A DNA stretch of 29,581 nucleotides from a virus, in IMG/VR virus record IMGVR_UViG_3300022913_000005, positions 1-29,581 of that record. One strand, written 5' to 3'. The position numbers were made by a program, and so were the translations under genes. Below, one piece after another: positions 3,259 through 29,581 of the stretch. The first letter of the stretch is position 1; every line of letters begins with the position of its first letter. Under the pieces are notes generated by a model. It searched no databases. It saw only the letters and a program-made list of their open reading frames with translations, and was not told the DNA's origin.

Positions 3259-4481
3259 TACTGTTTACCCCTCATTGTGAATTCAACAGAATATCCTAGT
3301 AATTGTAAATCTTTCTCAGGCTCCGCTTCGAATAGGAACTGAACAGCTTTACCGTTTCCCCGTATCTTTATTTTCTTAGATACGATACTCTCTCCTGTGT
3401 CGAAATCCCAAGGGAAAGTGTCTGGTGGGATGAACCCTCTTTGCATAGGTTTGTATAATTCAATACTCTTTCCTGAACCTATACCCGATTCATCTATACC
3501 CACCCATTTATTGAATGCATTACTATTATCGAAGTCCCATCTGGCTTGCATGGTACAACCGCTTGGTAAATCAAACACAAAAGCTTGCTCAACCTCGTCG
3601 TAATCTGTTATTTGTGTCTCTGTCTTCTTAAAGAAGAAGCTTCCGTATGTACTGGCTTTTTTATGACTGAACTTGCCTAGCGTTTCATATCCACTAAGTA
3701 AGTATGCTGTTACGTCTTCGCCAAAGTCTTTGAAAGTGGTGTCTGATTCAGTAGCGAAGTTATAATCGACCTCTGTTAGGGACTGAGCTAAGCTGTTAAC
3801 AAATAAGATCTCTTCAGTGTTATCAAGAATACCTACAACACGTCTATCGTCTGTTGCGAACTCTTGAGGATACCAACCACCTGTCCTCAGATCAAGGACT
3901 ACCCCTTGGTTTGTGATACCTGTTCTAAACCATACGCGTTTGTTCAATCTATCATACGTTGGGTACACAAAGGACTGTTCTGTTAGTCCTTGGTAGAAAG
4001 TAAGAACTGTGCTATCTGTTACTGACTGTACAGAGAGATTATCGAACTCATTAGGTACAATAGTGCTTACACCGTTCCTACTACAGAAATATAAGATACC
4101 TTGGACTTCTACAGAACAACCAGCGTCAAGTATAACTTCTTCGCTTATCTTACTTACTAGGTATCCTGTGCTTCGAAAACCAGTTTCGTTGTTGTACACG
4201 TACCACACACCTCGGTCTGTGAATACTAGAACACCTGTTCGATACACAACTAACTCAGTTATCTCACCAGCATCTTGTAGCTTTAATAGACCACCATCAG
4301 TATCAAGTATATCAGATATTTCATCAGATGTTGGGTCATTGATTTGGTAACACCTTCCTAGATCTTCTTTTCTTTCGAGTACAGGCGAATAGTACAAGGT
4401 ACTCCCTCCGCCAAAGAAGACACGCCCAAAACCAGCAGCAGTTACCTTAGGCTGGTCGGGGTTTATTAGTGGTAAGGTCAT
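3258..4481 (-). CDS. Tail nozzle protein, C-terminal half (gp12-like, part 2)
   Basis: 407 aa, beta-rich, with repeated aromatic/Gly motifs (GRVFFGGGSTLYYSP near residue 19; VLVFTDRGVWYVY near 85-97) typical of the propeller-like body of tail tubular protein B. The ATG at 4481 overlaps the stop of the upstream 378-aa gene (ATGA, 4478-4481), and I see no good Shine-Dalgarno close to it, so translation probably depends on the upstream gene. The two proteins together are 785 aa, almost the length of T7 gp12 (794 aa, from memory). I therefore read them as a nozzle protein divided into two chains. The alternative is two separate proteins of the tail tip. Confidence 0.65.
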   Translation of the reverse strand: MTLPLINPDQPKVTAAGFGRVFFGGGSTLYYSPVLERKEDLGRCYQINDPTSDEISDILDTDGGLLKLQDAGEITELVVYRTGVLVFTDRGVWYVYNNETGFRSTGYLVSKISEEVILDAGCSVEVQGILYFCSRNGVSTIVPNEFDNLSVQSVTDSTVLTFYQGLTEQSFVYPTYDRLNKRVWFRTGITNQGVVLDLRTGGWYPQEFATDDRRVVGILDNTEEILFVNSLAQSLTEVDYNFATESDTTFKDFGEDVTAYLLSGYETLGKFSHKKASTYGSFFFKKTETQITDYDEVEQAFVFDLPSGCTMQARWDFDNSNAFNKWVGIDESGIGSGKSIELYKPMQRGFIPPDTFPWDFDTGESIVSKKIKIRGNGKAVQFLFEAEPEKDLQLLGYSVEFTMRGKQ

Positions 4482-9532: not shown

Positions 9533-9814
9533 CTAAAGCTCGTGGTTAAGTTGTTTTTGGAGTTTACGTAAGATCTTTTTCTGACCTTTGTAGTTAGCCC
9601 CTATGTATTTACTCTGGAATAAAGACACAAAATCAATCTTTGAATCTTCTTCCTCTTGTATTGTATTCAGTTGATCTTCGAGAGATTTAATGAATTCTTG
9701 TGTGATCTCGTTGGCGTACCAGTTCTTGTATATTTGAACTAACTTATCTTTATCTTCTTTTGATGTAGCCTTTGAGAATTTTGTACTAAGGAAACTAGGT
9801 ATTTTAAAGCTCAC
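9533..9814 (-). CDS. Small basic protein between portal and scaffold (GTG start)
   Basis: 93 aa. A longer reading of the frame exists to 9958, but it lies wholly inside the portal gene and gives an unnatural Ser/Arg-rich N-terminus. The better start is GTG at 9814-9812, placed 6 nt after AGGAGG, overlapping the portal stop by 11 bases. The protein (SFKIPSFLSTKFSKATSKE at its N-terminus) is Lys-rich and helical, with an acidic central patch (QEEEDSKID). The family is not recognised. A portal- or scaffold-associated assembly factor is possible. Confidence 0.7.
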   Translation of the reverse strand: MSFKIPSFLSTKFSKATSKEDKDKLVQIYKNWYANEITQEFIKSLEDQLNTIQEEEDSKIDFVSLFQSKYIGANYKGQKKILRKLQKQLNHEL

Positions 9815-22095: not shown

Positions 22096-22296
22096 ATGTC
22101 GAGCATTAAACACGCTTTAGAAACATTCATACACGCATCCTTCATAGAGAAATTGTTCCTGTTTGTAGTAGGTGTTCTTATATGGGGTGCGTTGTTTGTA
22201 CTTGTAACGGTAGTTAAAATACTATCATCATTCTTACCAGTGCTTGTAGTTATAGCGATTTGGTACATATTTTTTAGGAAAACAAATGGAAAATAA
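22096..22296 (+). CDS. Small two-helix membrane protein (66 aa)
   Basis: 66 aa. Two adjoining membrane segments (about 19-41 and 43-60: LFLFVVGVLIWGALFVLVTV and FLPVLVVIAIWYIFF) with a short basic C-terminus (RKTNGK). The end overlaps the next gene by 11 bases. The ribosome site is weak (GGGAT), so it may be coupled to upstream translation. Holin-like size, but no direct evidence. Confidence 0.6.
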   Translation: MSSIKHALETFIHASFIEKLFLFVVGVLIWGALFVLVTVVKILSSFLPVLVVIAIWYIFFRKTNGK

Positions 22297-22648
22297 AACA
22301 TTAGTAGCAGTTTACGGTAGTTTACGCAACGGTCTAGGAAATCATAGATTGCTTGTTGGTCAAGAGTTCTTAGGTCAATCCGTAGTACAGGGCTTTAACC
22401 TCCATGTGTACTGTTCAGGTTTCCCAGCCATTACACAAGGGGATCACTCGGTATTAACTGAGGTGTACGCTGTGGATGCACCTTGTATGCGTTCTTTAGA
22501 TGGTTTGGAGGGATACCCAAGTTTCTATAACCGTACAGAAGTACAAACAACTTACGGTAAGGCTTGGATATATTTCATGAGTCCTGATGAAGTCCAAGGT
22601 ACTGAACTTATCGAAGATGGTGATTGGGTTAAGTACAAACGTGCTTAG
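22286..22648 (+). CDS. Gamma-glutamylcyclotransferase-like (GGCT/AIG2) protein
   Basis: 120 aa. Residues 8-14 carry the family signature VAVYGSLR, a loop that binds the gamma-glutamyl group. Residues 70-78 (SLDGLEGYP) hold the family's catalytic Glu (Glu75). Length is right for a compact GGCT domain. Members convert gamma-glutamyl amino acids or gamma-glutamyl amines to 5-oxoproline plus the free amine. AGGAA ribosome site; the gene starts inside the preceding membrane gene. Its closeness to the amidoligase/glutaminase operon suggests it trims or recycles a gamma-glutamyl product of that pathway. Confidence 0.88.
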   Translation: MENKTLVAVYGSLRNGLGNHRLLVGQEFLGQSVVQGFNLHVYCSGFPAITQGDHSVLTEVYAVDAPCMRSLDGLEGYPSFYNRTEVQTTYGKAWIYFMSPDEVQGTELIEDGDWVKYKRA

Positions 22649-22758: not shown

Positions 22759-24315
22759 ATGATTAATAAAAAAACTTCAGAATTGGATACTACAAGGTTC
22801 AATGAACTGCTTGAATTATCTAAAATGGTCATAGATGCACGCTACAGAAATGTACATAAACCTACACCAGATGTGCATGGAAGTGTGGCGATAAGACATC
22901 AACGAGCTATAAATGATCTAAAAGCTGAGCATGTAGGTAAGATGTGCTTCATGACACTTGATAGCGATCTCAATGTGCAGAAGAAGCAAAGAAGCGCTCC
23001 TTGTTGGGGTTCGTACACTATATGTACAACAGGTTCAGCGAATCCTTCGTATCTAGTATATCCTGTACTAAGCACAGGTGATGCTACTGCTGATGCAAAG
23101 ATGCGAGAATATATTGAGCTCTTGTACACCCTTCCTTTGATGCAACAAGTCTTAGTAGACTCTTCTGGGTCTGCTTATTACAGGGGTTTCCACTTGTTCA
23201 ATCTTCGTGCATCTGGGGACGTTTGCATGTTAGCTTACCACTTACTCCGTGGATTGTACGAAGGTGCTCACCAGAAGCCTAAAGAGTTCGGGCAACACAT
23301 GAGTAAGTACAGTTTCAGCTCCTTTCAGGGGATCAGCTCTCTGGTTAACTTCCTGTATGAGTCACGACAGTGGTTCAATCTAGGACATTCGTTCCTTCCA
23401 AACATTATGGAAACAGAACAGATGAACTCTGTTGCGATAACACTGTTGTTTGGATTCAAAGAAGTACTATCATCGTTCACTGAGACGGGGCTGTACAAGC
23501 CGAACGGATACCCTAGTATGGTAAGTCGTCTTGTGGATGGCTACTCCAGTGATGGGGCACAACTACACGCTGGTATTCAGAAAGTGTTCAATGAGCAGTA
23601 CAGTTCTCTGTTACAGTTAGATACTTTTGATATCACGAAAGCTGCTGATCAAGTTGTTATGAAAAGCTACGATTGCGGTGGTTCTTACAGTAACACTAGA
23701 GTGTACACAACGTCTGACAGAATGTTACCATATGTGAACCGTCCACATAACTGCTTCGGGGGTATGGTACGGGCTGATACTTTCTTCGGATTAGCTGATG
23801 ATGAGAGCATCCTTTGTATCCAGTACCCTGTCCCTGAGATGACACCTGATGACGTGATTGAAGTGTTACTGATGTTACCTATAATCAAGGTGCATTGCTT
23901 CAACAGAACACTACAGGATGTACGAGAGAAGGGTTTCCTGTTCGATACTACAACGAACGTAATAGAGATGATGTTGTGTCTATTCAATATAAGATACACA
24001 ATGCACTCAGCTAGTAATCCACTTGGCATACCTGATCCTTTGGTTCTTTTTAAGGAGCCAGCTAACCCAAGTTCAATTCAATATGAACAGCATGGTATGT
24101 GGGAAGCAGACTCCCCTGTTGGCGATGATGACAGACAGTACATGTCCCTTGGAGATCCAGAAGAAACAGATATGACGTTCTTTAATCTTAGAGGGTATCC
24201 AAAAGGCGTTTATGAGTACACAGATGAACGTAATATGCTTGGATCAGCAGCCTCAAGAAAAGCAAAAGCTAAACTACAAAATTTATTTCAAGAACTTCAG
24301 GAGAGTAAACAATGA
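22759..24315 (+). CDS. Unknown 518-aa protein heading the amidoligase operon
   Basis: 518 aa, soluble, mixed alpha/beta with many Tyr, Ser and Cys. Visible features: a helical N-terminus (1-60), a Tyr/Gly-rich segment about 130-150 (VLVDSSGSAYYRGFHLFN), a PHNCFGGM segment near 333, and an acidic linker before a Lys-rich C-terminal helix (SRKAKAKLQNLFQELQESKQ). I recognise no known domain. The last codons overlap the glutaminase start (ATGA at 24312-24315), a strong sign of joint expression and possibly a shared complex. It could be the acceptor/substrate protein or a structural partner of the ligases. Confidence 0.8.
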   Translation: MINKKTSELDTTRFNELLELSKMVIDARYRNVHKPTPDVHGSVAIRHQRAINDLKAEHVGKMCFMTLDSDLNVQKKQRSAPCWGSYTICTTGSANPSYLVYPVLSTGDATADAKMREYIELLYTLPLMQQVLVDSSGSAYYRGFHLFNLRASGDVCMLAYHLLRGLYEGAHQKPKEFGQHMSKYSFSSFQGISSLVNFLYESRQWFNLGHSFLPNIMETEQMNSVAITLLFGFKEVLSSFTETGLYKPNGYPSMVSRLVDGYSSDGAQLHAGIQKVFNEQYSSLLQLDTFDITKAADQVVMKSYDCGGSYSNTRVYTTSDRMLPYVNRPHNCFGGMVRADTFFGLADDESILCIQYPVPEMTPDDVIEVLLMLPIIKVHCFNRTLQDVREKGFLFDTTTNVIEMMLCLFNIRYTMHSASNPLGIPDPLVLFKEPANPSSIQYEQHGMWEADSPVGDDDRQYMSLGDPEETDMTFFNLRGYPKGVYEYTDERNMLGSAASRKAKAKLQNLFQELQESKQ

Positions 24316-25031
24316 AAGTCCTAGTAATAGGTAACAACAACGTACTAGTTAACTGGTTAGCTAAGCGATTCCATGTAGTATGTTTCGCAAGTGCAGGTGA
24401 AGTCCTCAAACGTATGAGTTTCACAGAAGATATCCACGGAGTCGTGTACCAAGGTGGTGCTGATATATCACCTACATGGTACAGCCAGAAACGACACAAG
24501 CAAACACGTTGCTTAGATTCTACAAGACGTGAGGATGATGAAGCTGAGTTGTACTGGAACCTAGTATCCAATAAAAGCATCCCTCATATTGGAATCTGTC
24601 GTGGTGCCCAGTTCCTAGCAGTTAATAACGGTGCGGATATGTACCAGCACTGTGAGGGTCATACGGATGAACACCTCATAGTCACGGCTGATCCAACTAG
24701 TAAGATCATGACAGCAAGTAGCACCCATCATCAAATGGTAGATATCTCACCTGTTCGTAGTAATGAAGACTTCAGATTGATTGCATGGGCTGAGGATAAA
24801 GCTACAGGTCTTGAAAAAATGCCTAAGGATGATGCAACTAGTGATGCACCTATCCCTTGTGCAACTAATAAAGATCCTGAGATCTTTGAATTCAAAGACA
24901 CAGCTACGTTATGTATACAAGGACACCCTGAGTACACAAACGTAGAAAAAGAATACAGTGAGTACTGCCTTGATTTAATTGAAGCGAGAGTAAAGTACTT
25001 CAAAGAACAGAACGAAACAGTAGGAGCGTAG
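24312..25031 (+). CDS. Class I glutamine amidotransferase-like / gamma-glutamyl hydrolase (peptidase C26, PuuD-like)
   Basis: 239 aa. Triad residues are all present: nucleophile Cys96 in GICRG (94-98), His205 and Glu207 in QGHPEY. Other family marks are YQGGADISP (46-54), an R-x-DD-x-E block (73-79) and SSTHHQM (136-142). The E-x-C-x-G neighbourhood and the ADISP motif point to the PuuD/gamma-glutamyl-hydrolase branch, which cleaves gamma-glutamyl amides, instead of a dedicated synthase glutaminase. It overlaps the 518-aa gene and abuts the class II glutaminase. In the pathway it may remove a gamma-glutamyl group or supply ammonia. Confidence 0.9.
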   Translation: MKVLVIGNNNVLVNWLAKRFHVVCFASAGEVLKRMSFTEDIHGVVYQGGADISPTWYSQKRHKQTRCLDSTRREDDEAELYWNLVSNKSIPHIGICRGAQFLAVNNGADMYQHCEGHTDEHLIVTADPTSKIMTASSTHHQMVDISPVRSNEDFRLIAWAEDKATGLEKMPKDDATSDAPIPCATNKDPEIFEFKDTATLCIQGHPEYTNVEKEYSEYCLDLIEARVKYFKEQNETVGA

Positions 25032-25032
25032 T

Positions 25033-26250
25033 ATGTGTGGTTTAGTAGGTATAATTGGCGACGTTAACAGCGTAGCTAGTAGGAAGATGTTCACAACGAT
25101 GTTATTCTTAGATACGTTGCGTGGTGAAGACAGCACTGGTGTGTACGCTATCAACTACAAGGATAACGAAGTCAACATCCTAAAGGACGCTTTACAAGCA
25201 CCTGACTTCATACAAGAGAAGCCTTACGAAGATATGATGCGTGTATCTAATAGATACTCAGCACTCATAGGTCACAACCGAGCAGCCACTGTAGGGGTTG
25301 TGAATAAACGTAATGCACACCCCTTCGAACATGGTGATATCACTATGGTACATAATGGTACGTTGCGTAATGAGCACATGCTTGATACATACAAAGACTT
25401 CTATGTAGATAGTGAGATGCTGTGTGGTGACTTCAACAAGAACGGTATGAAAAATACCATCATGAAAGTGAACGGTGCTTTCGCTCTGATATGGCACGAT
25501 AAGTCCGATAACACTGTCAATATCCTTCGTAATAGTGAACGTCCATTAAGCTACGCTGTGTTTCAAGCACAGAGTTCAGCCAATGTACTGATAGGTAGCC
25601 CTTTCCTAGCTGTAGCATCTGAGCCTTGGATGATGACGGTTGCTGCTAGTCGTTCAGGTATCAAGATGATCAGTCCAGATATCAAGTCAGTGAAGGTAGG
25701 TGAACACGTCAAGATTGATATTGATGGAATGTACTTAGAGCGTGATGCTGATATGTTACTAACTCATACTGAAACGGAGGAAGTCCCTCTTTTTACGAGT
25801 ACTACCCACGTGGGTGGGAGAACTTGGACTGGTAAAAACGTAGAGTACATCCACTCCACTAAAAGCAAGGCTAACAAAACTAAGAAACTTCCTGCATCTG
25901 GCAATACAGCCAGTACTCAGTGTAGCGTGTCTGGCCTTGCTGATAATATCATGTACAGTTTTGTCCCTATGTGGGCTTATGAGCACCACGGTAAGTACAT
26001 TGCTACAGGCACTGCGACATGTGGACGATACGTAAGATGTATCGTAGAGAAGGATGTCCACGACCAGATCATTCAACCCAGTAACCGTGCCTTACAAAAC
26101 AATATCCAACGTATCACAGCTCCAAAGGTAGGTAGTATAACAGAATCACCATCACAGAACGGTGGTAAGCAAGTAAAAAGTTACTTGATACTCGATTCAA
26201 CAATAACCGACAAGGCTGTCATTGCAAAAAAGAAACAGCGTGTGATCTAA
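25033..26250 (+). CDS. Class II glutamine amidotransferase (Ntn glutaminase), 0-frame product
   Basis: 405 aa. N-terminal Cys2 (MCGLVGIIGD) is the nucleophile after Met removal. Supporting motifs are LRGEDSTG (29-36), GHNRAAT (80-86), AHPF (95-98) and VHNGTL (106-111), all in register with the PurF/GlmS-type glutaminase domain, about residues 1-200. There is no attached synthase or transferase; residues 210-405 are an unassigned tail with several Cys/His (near 295-340). It therefore hydrolyses glutamine to provide ammonia to a separate ligase, probably one of the amidoligases downstream. The gene ends in a -1 frameshift signal, and part of the product is probably extended (see 26226-26492). 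Confidence 0.92.
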   Translation: MCGLVGIIGDVNSVASRKMFTTMLFLDTLRGEDSTGVYAINYKDNEVNILKDALQAPDFIQEKPYEDMMRVSNRYSALIGHNRAATVGVVNKRNAHPFEHGDITMVHNGTLRNEHMLDTYKDFYVDSEMLCGDFNKNGMKNTIMKVNGAFALIWHDKSDNTVNILRNSERPLSYAVFQAQSSANVLIGSPFLAVASEPWMMTVAASRSGIKMISPDIKSVKVGEHVKIDIDGMYLERDADMLLTHTETEEVPLFTSTTHVGGRTWTGKNVEYIHSTKSKANKTKKLPASGNTASTQCSVSGLADNIMYSFVPMWAYEHHGKYIATGTATCGRYVRCIVEKDVHDQIIQPSNRALQNNIQRITAPKVGSITESPSQNGGKQVKSYLILDSTITDKAVIAKKKQRVI

Positions 26251-26270
26251 CTTACGAGGAGGATCACACG
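26226..26270 (+). promoter_or_regulatory. Programmed -1 ribosomal frameshift signal
   Basis: The slippery heptamer A AAA AAG (26226-26232) lies in the correct register of the class II glutaminase frame (GCA AAA AAG, codons 398-400). A 6-nt spacer AAACAG is followed by a perfect 9-bp stem CGTGTGATC (26239-26247) / GATCACACG (26262-26270) with a 14-nt loop. The 0-frame stop TAA is the first three bases of the loop. This is the architecture of the E. coli dnaX site (same heptamer). The loop also holds GAGGAGG, so the hairpin could alternatively mask a ribosome site. Confidence 0.85.
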
Positions 26271-26492
26271 GATGTACCATTCGATGCAGATGAATCTCGA
26301 ATAGGTTATAGAGGTGTTCATCTCTCTGAGAAAGAATACCGAGAAGCTACTAAACATGGTTGTGCTTCCTGTACAGAACAGGCAGAGAACCTAGAAGATG
26401 ATCAACTTGTATGGATAGACAGTAACTCTTTCCTATGCGAAACATGCTGGGAACGAGAGTACGATGATATGTTCTATGCATTAATAAATTAA
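26232..26492 (+). CDS. -1 frame extension of the glutaminase: zinc-ribbon-like module
   Basis: After a -1 slip at 26226-26232 the frame reads on from GAA at 26232 for 86 codons to TAA at 26490-26492, giving a 486-aa fusion (400 + 86). The extension begins ETACDLTYEEDHTD and is acidic. It holds two CxxC pairs (CASC at 44-47 and CETC at 69-72 of the extension), 21 residues apart, as in zinc ribbons. Upstream, this frame is closed by TAA near 26170, and between that stop and the slip site there is no ATG, GTG or TTG. The only ATG in the open frame is 7 codons from its end. So a standalone gene is unlikely. An alternative is a genuine indel or assembly error near the ATG at 26272. Confidence 0.75.
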   Translation, partial: ETACDLTYEEDHTDVPFDADESRIGYRGVHLSEKEYREATKHGCASCTEQAENLEDDQLVWIDSNSFLCETCWEREYDDMFYALIN

Positions 26493-26504: not shown

Positions 26505-27305
26505 ATGAAATTTAATAATCAAGAAGTCCTTGTGGGCGCTGACCCTGAGGTGTTCATAAAGAAAGGTGGTTCGTTTGTATCTGCCTTTGGATTAGTACAG
26601 GGTAACAAGACAGAACCTTCTCCTGTAAAGGATGGTAGTGTTCAGGTAGATGGAATGGCTTTAGAGTTCAACATCAACCCAGCAGCTAACGTTCAGGAAT
26701 TTGTACATAACGTAGAGAGTGTGTACTCTCAGCTACGTGAACAAGTACCCCCTGACTATGAGTTCTCTGACCAAGCAACAGCTTTGTTCAACTTTAACTA
26801 CTTCAGTGAGAGAAGTACAGAAGAAGTTCAGTTAGGCTGTGAAGCTGATTACAACGCTTACACAGGTACAGAGAACACTAAACCAGACCAGAAGAAACCT
26901 ATCCGTACAGCAGGTGGTCATATCCATATTGGCTGGCAAGAATGGGGCTTCTTAGATGAAGAACATATCGAGAAGTGTAGACGTGTTGTAAAAGCATGTG
27001 ACTTCTACTTAGGATTGCCTAGTATCTTGTATGACTCAGACACTGATCGAAGAAGTATGTACGGACAAGCAGGTTGCTTTCGTCCAAAGACATATGGTGT
27101 AGAGTACAGAACACTAAGTAATGCTTGGATACATAGTACAGAACTTCTTGAGTTCGTGTACAGTAGTATAGAGCAGATGATGGCTAATGAAAGCTCTTGG
27201 GATCAGATGTTCGAAACAGATATACAAGATGTTATTAACACATCAGACACAACTAAAGCTCTTGAGCTGATTAACAAGTTCAATATACCTGTGTTTGGAG
27301 GTTAG
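26505..27305 (+). CDS. phiEco32-like COOH-NH2 ligase type 2 (amidoligase)
   Basis: 266 aa ATP-dependent ligase of the glutamine-synthetase-like fold. Motifs in order: GADPEVF (11-17), DGMALEFNINPA (49-60), GGHIHIGW (137-144), DRRSMYGQAG (181-190) and GVEYRTLSN (198-206). Acidic and His residues in the first three would bind the metal-ATP complex; the Arg of the last would contact phosphate or carboxylate. This is the phage family named after phiEco32. It joins a carboxylate to an amine with ATP. GGAGT lies just upstream of the ATG and the gene is one base from the next. Substrates are unknown. All expected motifs are present. Confidence 0.9.
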   Translation: MKFNNQEVLVGADPEVFIKKGGSFVSAFGLVQGNKTEPSPVKDGSVQVDGMALEFNINPAANVQEFVHNVESVYSQLREQVPPDYEFSDQATALFNFNYFSERSTEEVQLGCEADYNAYTGTENTKPDQKKPIRTAGGHIHIGWQEWGFLDEEHIEKCRRVVKACDFYLGLPSILYDSDTDRRSMYGQAGCFRPKTYGVEYRTLSNAWIHSTELLEFVYSSIEQMMANESSWDQMFETDIQDVINTSDTTKALELINKFNIPVFGG

Positions 27306-27306
27306 T

Positions 27307-28146
27307 ATGCGGTTTGATACTATTGATGATTACATAAGTCGATACACTGGAACACTTATTACAGTTGGCGGTGAGCTGCTCTCTGTCCAGAATGTACGTG
27401 GACGAGTAAGTAACCCTAAGTTCATTGTGCAGACGAGAGCTGGTGACGTACGAGAAGTACACCCTTTCGGTGTTGATGAAGAAGAGACTGTCCTTGACTT
27501 CAACAGGTCTTTCTACCACATACATGATGGTCGTTTGTACTACATGACAGCTAACCCAGAACGTCAGTGGAAGCAGGGGTTCAGGGCTAATAAGTACAGA
27601 TACACAACAGCGGTGACTGACCCTCGGAAAATACAAACAGGGGGTGGTAACGGATTCCGTGTTTGGGACTTGTTCAGATCTATGGTTGCCCCTTTGTACA
27701 ATACAGTAGGTTCAGTCCAAGGAATCGCTTATGTAGTATCTGATTCGTTAGCAGTGGATCTAGAAGGTAATGTGTTCTTCAAGGCAGCCTTTGTGGGTGT
27801 TGTTCAAGGCTCAAGTGTTGCACTTCATAAAGAGGGACAGTGGATAAAAGACCACTTAGAACGTCTTGGTATCGAATACAAAGTTAATAACAGATCTAAG
27901 AAAGCTTTGACCATGAAGTTATCTGTTCCTCAACTAGAGGCTGCTGGCGTAGATAGTGATAAGATCGACCAGATAATAAATCTGATTATTGAACGAGATA
28001 ACAGGGAGCTACAGCGACAACGAGAAGCTAATGAAGCAGCCTTCGCTGCGTTCAGTGCAGGGGCAGCCCCTGCTGGAACAGCAGCAGACATAAGACGTAC
28101 ATTCAGAACAATGGATTTTACAGCACCACCACCACCAAGAGGTTAA
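27307..28146 (+). CDS. Unknown 279-aa protein between two amidoligases
   Basis: The start is ATG at 27307 with GGAGG 6 nt upstream, better than a TTG at 27295 in the same frame. The first half is beta-rich (ITVGGELLSVQNVRGRV; KFIVQTRAGDVREVHPF). The region 115-165 contains VWDLFRSMVAPLYNTVG and an aliphatic strand. The C-terminal 70 residues are helical and Ala-rich, ending in a polyproline run (APPPPRG). No catalytic motif is obvious. A free Pro/Gly tail might be an acceptor for ligation or a flexible binding tail. The gene lies in the tight operon, one base after and one base before its neighbours. Confidence 0.75.
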   Translation: MRFDTIDDYISRYTGTLITVGGELLSVQNVRGRVSNPKFIVQTRAGDVREVHPFGVDEEETVLDFNRSFYHIHDGRLYYMTANPERQWKQGFRANKYRYTTAVTDPRKIQTGGGNGFRVWDLFRSMVAPLYNTVGSVQGIAYVVSDSLAVDLEGNVFFKAAFVGVVQGSSVALHKEGQWIKDHLERLGIEYKVNNRSKKALTMKLSVPQLEAAGVDSDKIDQIINLIIERDNRELQRQREANEAAFAAFSAGAAPAGTAADIRRTFRTMDFTAPPPPRG

Positions 28147-28147
28147 C

Positions 28148-29020
28148 ATGAACAGAGATCTGAAAACAACGTACATCCATGAAATACTACGAGGTGTCAA
28201 TAAGCAACCTCAGAGTTTACAAACGAGTACAAAGATTCAAACGAACTGCATGATCGGGTTAGAGATTGAGCTAGAGTCATGTGTAACAGATGATGTGGAG
28301 CGATTCAGTACCCAGACATTCAATAATTACTGGAGAACGACATACGATGGTTCTCTACGTGGAGGGTACGGAGTTGAGTTCGTCCTGAGTAAGCCACGAT
28401 CAGGAGCTGGTGCGAGTACAGCCCTAAAAGCTTTCGATAAACTCATGAAAGATTTACCTAACAAACCAACTACAAGTCAATCTACTAGTACACATGTACA
28501 CTTAGATATGACTAATACTAGCCTGTACGATGTATTGAAGTTCTTGTTCTTGTACAGAATATTCGAGACAGCCCTTATCAAATCATGTGGTAGCACTCGT
28601 GTTAGTAATCTGTACTGTATGAGCTTTCAAGAGGCTAATAAACCATTCATGGAGTTAGCCCGTGTCTTAAAAGATCCTAGTAACTTATCACAGTACAACA
28701 TGAACGAACACAAATACGGTGCTTGTAACCTAGCTGCACTAACACAGTACGGCAGCTTAGAGTTTCGCTCTAAAGGTGGTGTTACAACAGCACAAGAAGT
28801 TATCGACTGGGTTAACACACTGACAAGTATCAAGATATTTGCTGACTCTCTTGAGTCTTTCGAGGATGTGTTATCGTTAGCTTCTCGTGAACATGCAGAT
28901 ATAGTTCAGACAGTGTTCGGTGAGTACGCGGATTCAGTTGCACAGTTCTTCCAGATAGAAGATATGTGGGAGGCGTGTATGGATATCCAGTACGTAATCA
29001 ATGAAGCATGGGAGGCATAA
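28148..29020 (+). CDS. Second amidoligase (Amidoligase_2 family)
   Basis: 290 aa. Motifs of the Amidoligase_2 branch of the glutamine-synthetase-like ligases: GLEIELES (37-44), DGSLRGGYGVEFVLSKP (67-83), THVHLDM (115-121), KYGACNLAAL (189-198) and SLEFRSKGG (203-211). This branch is distinct from the type 2 family encoded two genes earlier, so the phage makes two different ligases. They catalyse ATP-driven amide formation, often attaching amino acids to peptides or carboxylates. The stop overlaps the next start (TAATG). Substrate unknown. Confidence 0.88.
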   Translation: MNRDLKTTYIHEILRGVNKQPQSLQTSTKIQTNCMIGLEIELESCVTDDVERFSTQTFNNYWRTTYDGSLRGGYGVEFVLSKPRSGAGASTALKAFDKLMKDLPNKPTTSQSTSTHVHLDMTNTSLYDVLKFLFLYRIFETALIKSCGSTRVSNLYCMSFQEANKPFMELARVLKDPSNLSQYNMNEHKYGACNLAALTQYGSLEFRSKGGVTTAQEVIDWVNTLTSIKIFADSLESFEDVLSLASREHADIVQTVFGEYADSVAQFFQIEDMWEACMDIQYVINEAWEA

Positions 29021-29581
29021 TGCCATACATACTACCATACAAGAACGGCTCTCGAAGTGCTAAGGTACTCTCTGAGTCACTAGGATTTAAGCAAGTAAAA
29101 CGGGAACGTAGTCGTTTCTCTGCACTGACAAGATCAGGACACCCAAAGAAAGTTATTAACTGGGGTAGTTCTGAGTTACCACAGCATATGCAAAATACTA
29201 TCATCATTAATGAACCTGATGCTGTTAAAACAGCCTGTAACAAGCTGGAAGCTTTCAGGAGTCTCGATGGGGAGGTAAGTATCCCAGAGTACAGTACAGA
29301 ACGTGAGGATGCTGTACAGTGGCTACAGGATGGTCAGAAGGTTGTTGAGCGTCACCTATTACGAGGTAACTCAGGTAGAGGTATCCGTATTGTCGATTCT
29401 GTCGATGACCTACAAGATGCTCCTTTGTACGTTAAGTACATCAAGAAGACTGCTGAGTACAGAATACATGTGTTCAAAGGGGAAGCTTTCGATATCCAAG
29501 AGAAGCGTCGTAATCGTGATGTACAAGATGATCAGGTTAACTGGCAGGTACGCAATACAGACGGTGGCTTTATCTTTGCCA
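29020..29581 (+). CDS. ATP-grasp ligase (5' part; right edge cuts it)
   Basis: 187 codons visible. Residues 70-105 form the pre-ATP-grasp region (NKLEAFRSLDGEVSIPEYST). A nucleotide-binding Gly-rich loop follows, HLLRGNSGRG at 112-121, then LYVKYIKKTAEYRIHVF (136-152) and DIQEKRR (158-164), the order expected for RimK-like/phage ATP-grasp enzymes. The metal-binding Glu/Asn-x-Asn residues would lie beyond the edge. It activates a carboxylate as acyl phosphate for attack by an amine. As the fourth ligase/glutaminase type of the operon it completes a peptide-bond-forming toolkit. Family is clear, substrate unknown. Confidence 0.85.
   Translation, partial: MPYILPYKNGSRSAKVLSESLGFKQVKRERSRFSALTRSGHPKKVINWGSSELPQHMQNTIIINEPDAVKTACNKLEAFRSLDGEVSIPEYSTEREDAVQWLQDGQKVVERHLLRGNSGRGIRIVDSVDDLQDAPLYVKYIKKTAEYRIHVFKGEAFDIQEKRRNRDVQDDQVNWQVRNTDGGFIFA

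Follow-up and report, generated by a model that had tools for sequence, protein, structure and literature searches.

A probable −1 programmed ribosomal frameshift of reversed dnaX layout links a four-cysteine module to a phage class II glutaminase

The slippery heptamer A_AAA_AAG is the naturally used frameshift site of E. coli dnaX, where it is highly shift-prone, and a reversed dnaX layout has been reported for a few bacteria, e.g. Chlorobium phaeobacteroides (PMC5009743). In the E. coli gene the shift makes the short form, whereas in the reversed layout a 0-frame stop lies at or near the heptamer, so that standard decoding gives the short form and the shift gives the long one. Among phages, the tail-assembly chaperone gene lambda G/GT and the capsid genes T7 10A/10B and of phiEco32 type (PMC7881722) use a late −1 shift, by which a smaller part of the product gains a C-terminal domain. 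Ribosome slippage can also be corrective, recovering an out-of-frame downstream part of a gene (PMC5009743). Here, we describe a gene that shares features with all of these systems. It belongs to the class II glutaminases of phiEco32-type phages and Zobellviridae (PHROG 4736 / 18128), and it has the gene order of that family, with COOH-NH2 ligase, amidoligase and ATP-grasp neighbours. The four-cysteine domain that ends these proteins is usually in frame; in this gene and seven relatives, it would be reached only by frameshifting. As in dnaX, there is an A_AAA_AAG heptamer, a downstream hairpin at 5-8 nt, and a short and a long predicted form with a common N-terminus; as in the reversed layout, the long form would be the product of the shift. 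Unlike dnaX, this is a phage metabolic gene and encodes no polymerase subunit. Lambda G/GT and the capsid genes serve structure or assembly and shift on other heptamers (e.g. GGGAAAG); this gene encodes an enzyme of a peptide-ligase cluster.

The window, i.e. the whole stretch of DNA that was analysed, is a virus record of 29,581 bases. At its right end, genes for a cyclotransferase, a class I amidotransferase, a class II glutaminase, a COOH-NH2 ligase, an amidoligase and an ATP-grasp enzyme are clustered on the plus strand (Table 1). Two further proteins of the cluster, of 518 aa (22759-24315) and 283 aa (27295-28146), had no Pfam match and no or only marginal PHROG matches, and unnamed genes are also found at these positions in related clusters. 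By domain and fold match, and without an activity assay, the gene of interest encodes a class II glutaminase, as the initial annotation had proposed. Its product scored 60.3 bits against PF13522 (GATase_6; cut-off 27), matched phrog_4736 (1e-81) and positions 1-220 of phrog_18128, starts with MCG, of which Cys2 is invariant, and yielded a structure model matching the PurF/GlmS glutaminase fold. The model of the 405-aa product is confident only for the glutaminase domain (approximately residues 1-240), and the tail, including the heptamer region, is of low confidence. Most of the glutaminase's nearest named relatives are podoviruses of the Zobellviridae.

Table 1. Coordinates of the ligase-type gene cluster and of the putative frameshift signal in the window
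Feature	Position	Strand	Evidence
Gamma-glutamyl cyclotransferase (AIG2-like)	22286..22648	+	PF06094
Class I glutamine amidotransferase / peptidase C26-like	24312..25031	+	PF07722
Class II (Ntn, Cys2) glutaminase, 0-frame product of 405 aa (short form)	25033..26250	+	ORF, PF13522, phrog_4736, phrog_18128, model match
Slippery heptamer A_AAA_AAG, in register (gene offset 1193, remainder 2)	26226..26232	+	read directly
−1-frame extension, 86 codons + stop, four-Cys (putative zinc) module	26232..26492	+	profile of in-frame relatives; phrog_18128
6-nt spacer AAACAG	26233..26238	+	read directly
Hairpin 5' arm CGTGTGATC	26239..26247	+	only perfect hairpin of at least 9 bp in window, z −4.1
0-frame stop TAA, first three loop bases, ends short form	26248..26250	+	read directly
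Hairpin 3' arm GATCACACG	26262..26270	+	pairs with 5' arm
Span of four cysteine codons (26361, 26370, 26436, 26445)	26361..26447	+	invariant in 38 aligned relatives
phiEco32-type COOH-NH2 ligase, next gene	26505..27305	+	PF14395, phrog_3815 8e-86
Amidoligase_2	28148..29020	+	PF12224, phrog_7469
ATP-grasp / RimK-like ligase, runs off window	29008..29580	+	phrog_2599 9e-54

The 0 frame of the glutaminase gene ends ...GTC ATT GCA AAA AAG AAA CAG CGT GTG ATC TAA. The in-register heptamer, the 6-nt spacer, the 9-bp stem and the stop in the loop, all claimed in the initial annotation, were confirmed on re-reading the sequence. An in-register A_AAA_AAG occurs only this once among the 31 ORFs of the window. 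The two arms form nine perfect pairs around a loop of 14 nt, to which RNAfold adds a U-G pair at the loop start, and no other perfect Watson-Crick hairpin of at least 9 bp with a loop of 3-20 nt was found within the 29,581 bases. The 45 nt starting 5 nt past the heptamer fold at −17.3 kcal/mol versus −8.0 ± 2.3 kcal/mol for shuffled sequences, none of which reached this value (0/500). The further claim that each element matches the dnaX site stands for the heptamer and the hairpin; it does not extend to an upstream Shine-Dalgarno (SD) stimulator of dnaX type, of which no sign was seen in the window (best −2.6 kcal/mol, p 0.49 against background), unlike in dnaX and in some relatives. A strong SD-like GAGGAGG (26256-26262) lies in the hairpin loop and 3' arm, 9 nt 5' of an ATG at 26272, which opens a 10-codon 0-frame ORF ending at TAG (region 26256-26304); this ORF is probably incidental, though it overlaps the stem. 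Elsewhere in the window, a candidate frameshift at the portal gene and its downstream ORF on the minus strand (9533-9793) was rejected. That gene has no ATG and overlaps the portal gene stop, and a GTG start with a good SD, directly 3' of AGGAGGAGGAAG, explains the ORF.

In the proposed mechanism, most ribosomes would read the 0 frame and stop at the TAA (26248-26250), giving the 405-aa glutaminase. The hairpin, 6 nt past the heptamer, would make a fraction of them pause, and the two lysyl-tRNAs of these ribosomes would re-pair from AAA-AAG to AAA-AAA. After the shift, they would read 86 more codons in the −1 frame and release a form of 486 aa (400 + 86) with a four-cysteine, probably zinc-binding, end.

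Read from 26226, the −1 frame runs through 88 codons before its stop at 26490-26492, and its sole ATG, GTG or TTG is codon 81. The extension of 86 codons with a CxxC-x21-CxxC spacing, the late position of the first possible start and the predicted product sizes of 405 and 486 aa were all correctly given in the initial annotation. In a search of a small database, the profile made from in-frame relatives hit the extension at E 2.7e-15. C46, C49, C71 and C74 are invariant across the 38 aligned sequences, and the flanking pattern GY.G..L...E(F/Y)...T..GC..C is common to many of these rows. phrog_18128, which has 437 positions, covers both parts of the gene, the 405-aa product at 1-220 and the extension at 375-426, with a modest match for the latter (E 0.004). 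Sequence searches of Pfam and PDB with the cysteine module gave weak matches only. AlphaFold2 predicted a cysteine hairpin followed by a C-terminal helix (pLDDT 86), and the structure matches were of C4/LIM/RING type, the best of them the ClpX ZBD (2ds5, Z 3.8), all weak and none significant. On these weak scores, the modelled fold looks more like the C4 treble-clef/ClpX-ZBD type than a classic zinc ribbon, and the module is probably zinc-binding, as inferred from its cysteines without a metal assay. The glutaminases of L393, L394 and L400 (Kuravirus, Aeromonas phage BUCT695) are longer, and the four-cysteine profile matched them two to three times in a row (e.g. at 429-489 and 561-608 in L400), which suggests that the longer glutaminases of phiEco32-type phages and Grimontviridae hold tandem copies of the module.

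Relatives were gathered by alignment-based scans, and the frame of the module was scored with the profile of in-frame relatives on 155 unique loci. A single-protein scan of viral contigs returned no close relatives, and a scan of genome contigs returned only distant cellular amidotransferases, which were left out. The module was in frame in 114 loci, in the −1 frame in seven and in the +1 frame in one, and it was absent from 33, which include some cut contigs. Since it is fused in frame in 114 relatives, the fused protein is, by this comparison of predicted genes, the usual form of the glutaminase with its four-cysteine domain. The seven −1-frame genes are that of the window, L098 (=L018), L169 (=L074), L170, L242 (=L019), and those of two isolates, Vibrio phage 1.293.O (L004, MG592660) and Vibrio phage 275E43-1 (L006, OX241572). 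An eighth case, outside the 155-locus count, is the cultured Pseudoalteromonas phage Slicky01 (L396, OQ508958). Short-only relatives, which have lost the module altogether, include L007 and L008, sisters of the Vibrio pair, and the L062/L271/L302 group. The single +1-frame case, L032, was rejected: the 99% identical L036 has one A fewer at the linker near locus position 4105 (A8 versus A7), the two metagenome contigs differ by further indels, and an error of assembly or sequencing seems to underlie the difference. In Pseudomonas phage TL (L391), the glutaminase is annotated only as two misc_features, the frame is broken in comparison with relatives and the module lies in the +1 frame.

Standard annotation loses the last domain of the −1-frame glutaminases. 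No gene is annotated over the extension in 1.293.O (L004 6188-6361) or in Slicky01, and the 275E43-1 record has a separate 49-aa hypothetical protein starting from an internal ATG (L006 3224-3370). The tryptic peptides that only frameshifting would produce are VIVDVGTATLTMSR in 1.293.O, VVVDVGDATLTMSR in 275E43-1 and VDTVTCYVCNEHTDK in Slicky01.

The initial annotation had named as a refutation of the frameshift any relatives in which the extension is a gene of its own and the heptamer is missing, and had proposed a search of relatives for a conserved heptamer and hairpin. The refuting condition came out the opposite way, with 114 fused relatives and an in-register A_AAA_AAG at the junction in all eight −1-frame genes. 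Frames joined through chance indels would be expected to leave the junction unmarked. In the seven genes of the 155-locus set, the heptamer always lies downstream of the last −1 stop and upstream of the 0-frame stop, in an overlap of 4-27 codons in which it would be expected by chance in 0.4-2.5% of cases per gene; in L396, L098 and L006 the overlap is only 3-4 codons. Five of the eight genes (L098, L169, L004, L006 and L396) have the 0-frame stop directly 3' of the heptamer. In Slicky01, the 0 frame ends GCT AAA AAA AAG TAG, a −1-frame stop stands directly 5' of the heptamer so that the −1 ORF starts exactly there, and it continues as KKVDTVTCYVC...DWVCDVCHF with no start codon before codon 38 and a hairpin of approximately −20 kcal/mol downstream; its match to the module profile is weak (E 0.077). 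Hairpins 3' of the heptamer reach z −2.5 to −4.1 in the window, L098, L170 and L242 (z −3.9 in L242), and L396 has one as well, whereas in L169, L004 and L006 no significant hairpin was found after the heptamer, the signal there being weak or absent. An upstream SD-like element is strong in L170 and L006 (p 0.025), moderate in L169 and L242 (p 0.098) and not found in L098, as in the window. The stimulators are hence not uniform across the −1-frame genes. The idea that in-frame relatives also make a short form through A_AAA_AAG received no support: eight of the 114 fused genes have an in-register heptamer near the module (70-codon stretch), as expected from the whole-gene background rate.

As to INDEPENDENCE and selection, the −1-frame genes fall into four places of a tree built on the glutaminase domain alone: the window with L098 and L242; L169 with L170, which sit inside a fused group; L004 with L006; and L396. 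This tree requires no fewer than four changes and rejects the grouping of these genes in one clade (p-AU 1.4e-5). The placement of L396, a long branch, is unsure, and in a quick tree from which it was left out the minimum falls to three changes. The two Vibrio phages, 73.5% identical and both with the −1 arrangement, have kept the heptamer while the 45 nt upstream have strongly diverged. From the heptamer on, their differences at codon positions 1/2/3 of the −1 frame number 7/6/22 (dN 0.10, dS 1.07), and in the 13 codons before the first ATG, 11 residues are the same. This pattern of codon substitution shows that the −1 frame is under selection in the Vibrio pair.

Taken together, the anatomy of the signal, the lack of a start codon, the conserved extension and the heptamer in every −1-frame relative support the frameshift reading of the initial annotation, and the gene is very probably decoded by −1 programmed ribosomal frameshifting in a reversed dnaX layout. 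This conclusion rests on sequence alone, with no protein or reporter evidence, and the host and its tRNA-Lys set are unknown; that frameshifting takes place in the host, with what efficiency, and that both forms are used, is inferred only, and so is the fixed ratio of the two forms given in the initial annotation. The arrangement could instead be an artefact of assembly or sequencing that changed the length of the A-run in a gene truly fused in frame, like most relatives. The junction is indeed an A6 homopolymer and one such case is known (L032/L036), and a search from which near copies may have been withheld gave neither another independent assembly of this sequence nor a copy of the site with a variable A-run. 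However, eight genes from separate sources of data show the arrangement, three isolate genomes among them, with two diverged Vibrio genomes in agreement; a random indel would not give a 0-frame stop directly after the heptamer in five of eight genes; the unique 9-bp hairpin of the window stands at the right distance and relatives have hairpins too; and the overlaps of merely 3-4 codons in L396, L098 and L006 speak against it as well. We regard such an artefact as most improbable. Transcriptional slippage on the same run, which would make mRNAs in the other frame, is favoured by the A-run at the junction and its extension to A7-A8 in L170 and Slicky01. The six A's of the window and five relatives are nevertheless below the approximately 8-9 usually needed (An with n>7, PMC3711429; runs of 9, PMC5009743), and slippage of this kind would leave the in-register phase, the hairpin and the adjacent stop unexplained, making it a very unlikely source of the long form. 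The cysteine module could also be a product of its own, if ribosomes re-initiate past the 0-frame stop or use a non-standard start codon, and an in-frame ATG does lie a few tens of nucleotides past that stop in the Vibrio phages and L098, with a 49-aa ORF annotated there in OX241572. Yet in the window, as in L170 and L396, no ATG, GTG or TTG stands upstream of the cysteines, the −1-frame residues of the Vibrio pair are conserved from the heptamer on, upstream of the first ATG, and 114 relatives have the module fused; we give separate translation hardly any credence.

Frameshifting itself being the favoured reading, the main rival concerns its purpose and not the mechanism, which that rival accepts. 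On the one hand, the site may be a tolerated scar, where corrective frameshifting passes over a real DNA indel, the long form alone is functional and the short one a waste product. Most relatives make the long form alone, the −1 state arose at least four times (or at least three on the quick tree without L396), and corrective frameshifting is a recognised class (PMC5009743). Its weight is opposed by the strong hairpins, the stops that directly follow the heptamer in five of the eight genes, the retention of the −1 state in diverged sister pairs and the existence of L007 and L008, in which the short form alone is present and can thus work alone. We consider a corrective purpose rather unlikely; given the multiple lineages, hairpins and adjacent stops, the gene differs from a plain corrective case, but this purpose is not excluded, and the chance we allow it overlaps with the confidence placed in the mechanism. 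On the other hand, frameshifting may be a repeatedly evolved ratio control, in which separate lineages swapped the fusion for a mix, set by A_AAA_AAG, of a short form and a long form with a metal-binding tail, both being needed in one complex. This remains a tentative proposal that we hold at slightly less than even chances. The family has no general requirement for a fixed ratio of two products, because the great majority of relatives have the long form only. Short-only (L007/L008) and long-only (114) relatives both exist, and therefore each form can serve alone somewhere. Where both forms are made, their mixture may set stoichiometry, and by inference the likely setting is the pathway of glutaminase, COOH-NH2 ligase, amidoligase and ATP-grasp enzyme.

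No paper linking frameshifting to this glutaminase gene family was found, in a search that did not cover most subscription papers. Signals of this kind are known, whereas the gene family and the repeated independent use appear, within the limits of that search, to be new. Frameshifting in the glutaminase would bring an enzyme family into the small set of phage genes with a conserved −1 frameshift, which otherwise consists mostly of tail, capsid and transposase genes. The natural relatives display three states of one protein, i.e. fused, frameshifted and short only, and the question of frameshifting versus fusion is therefore directly testable by swapping these states.
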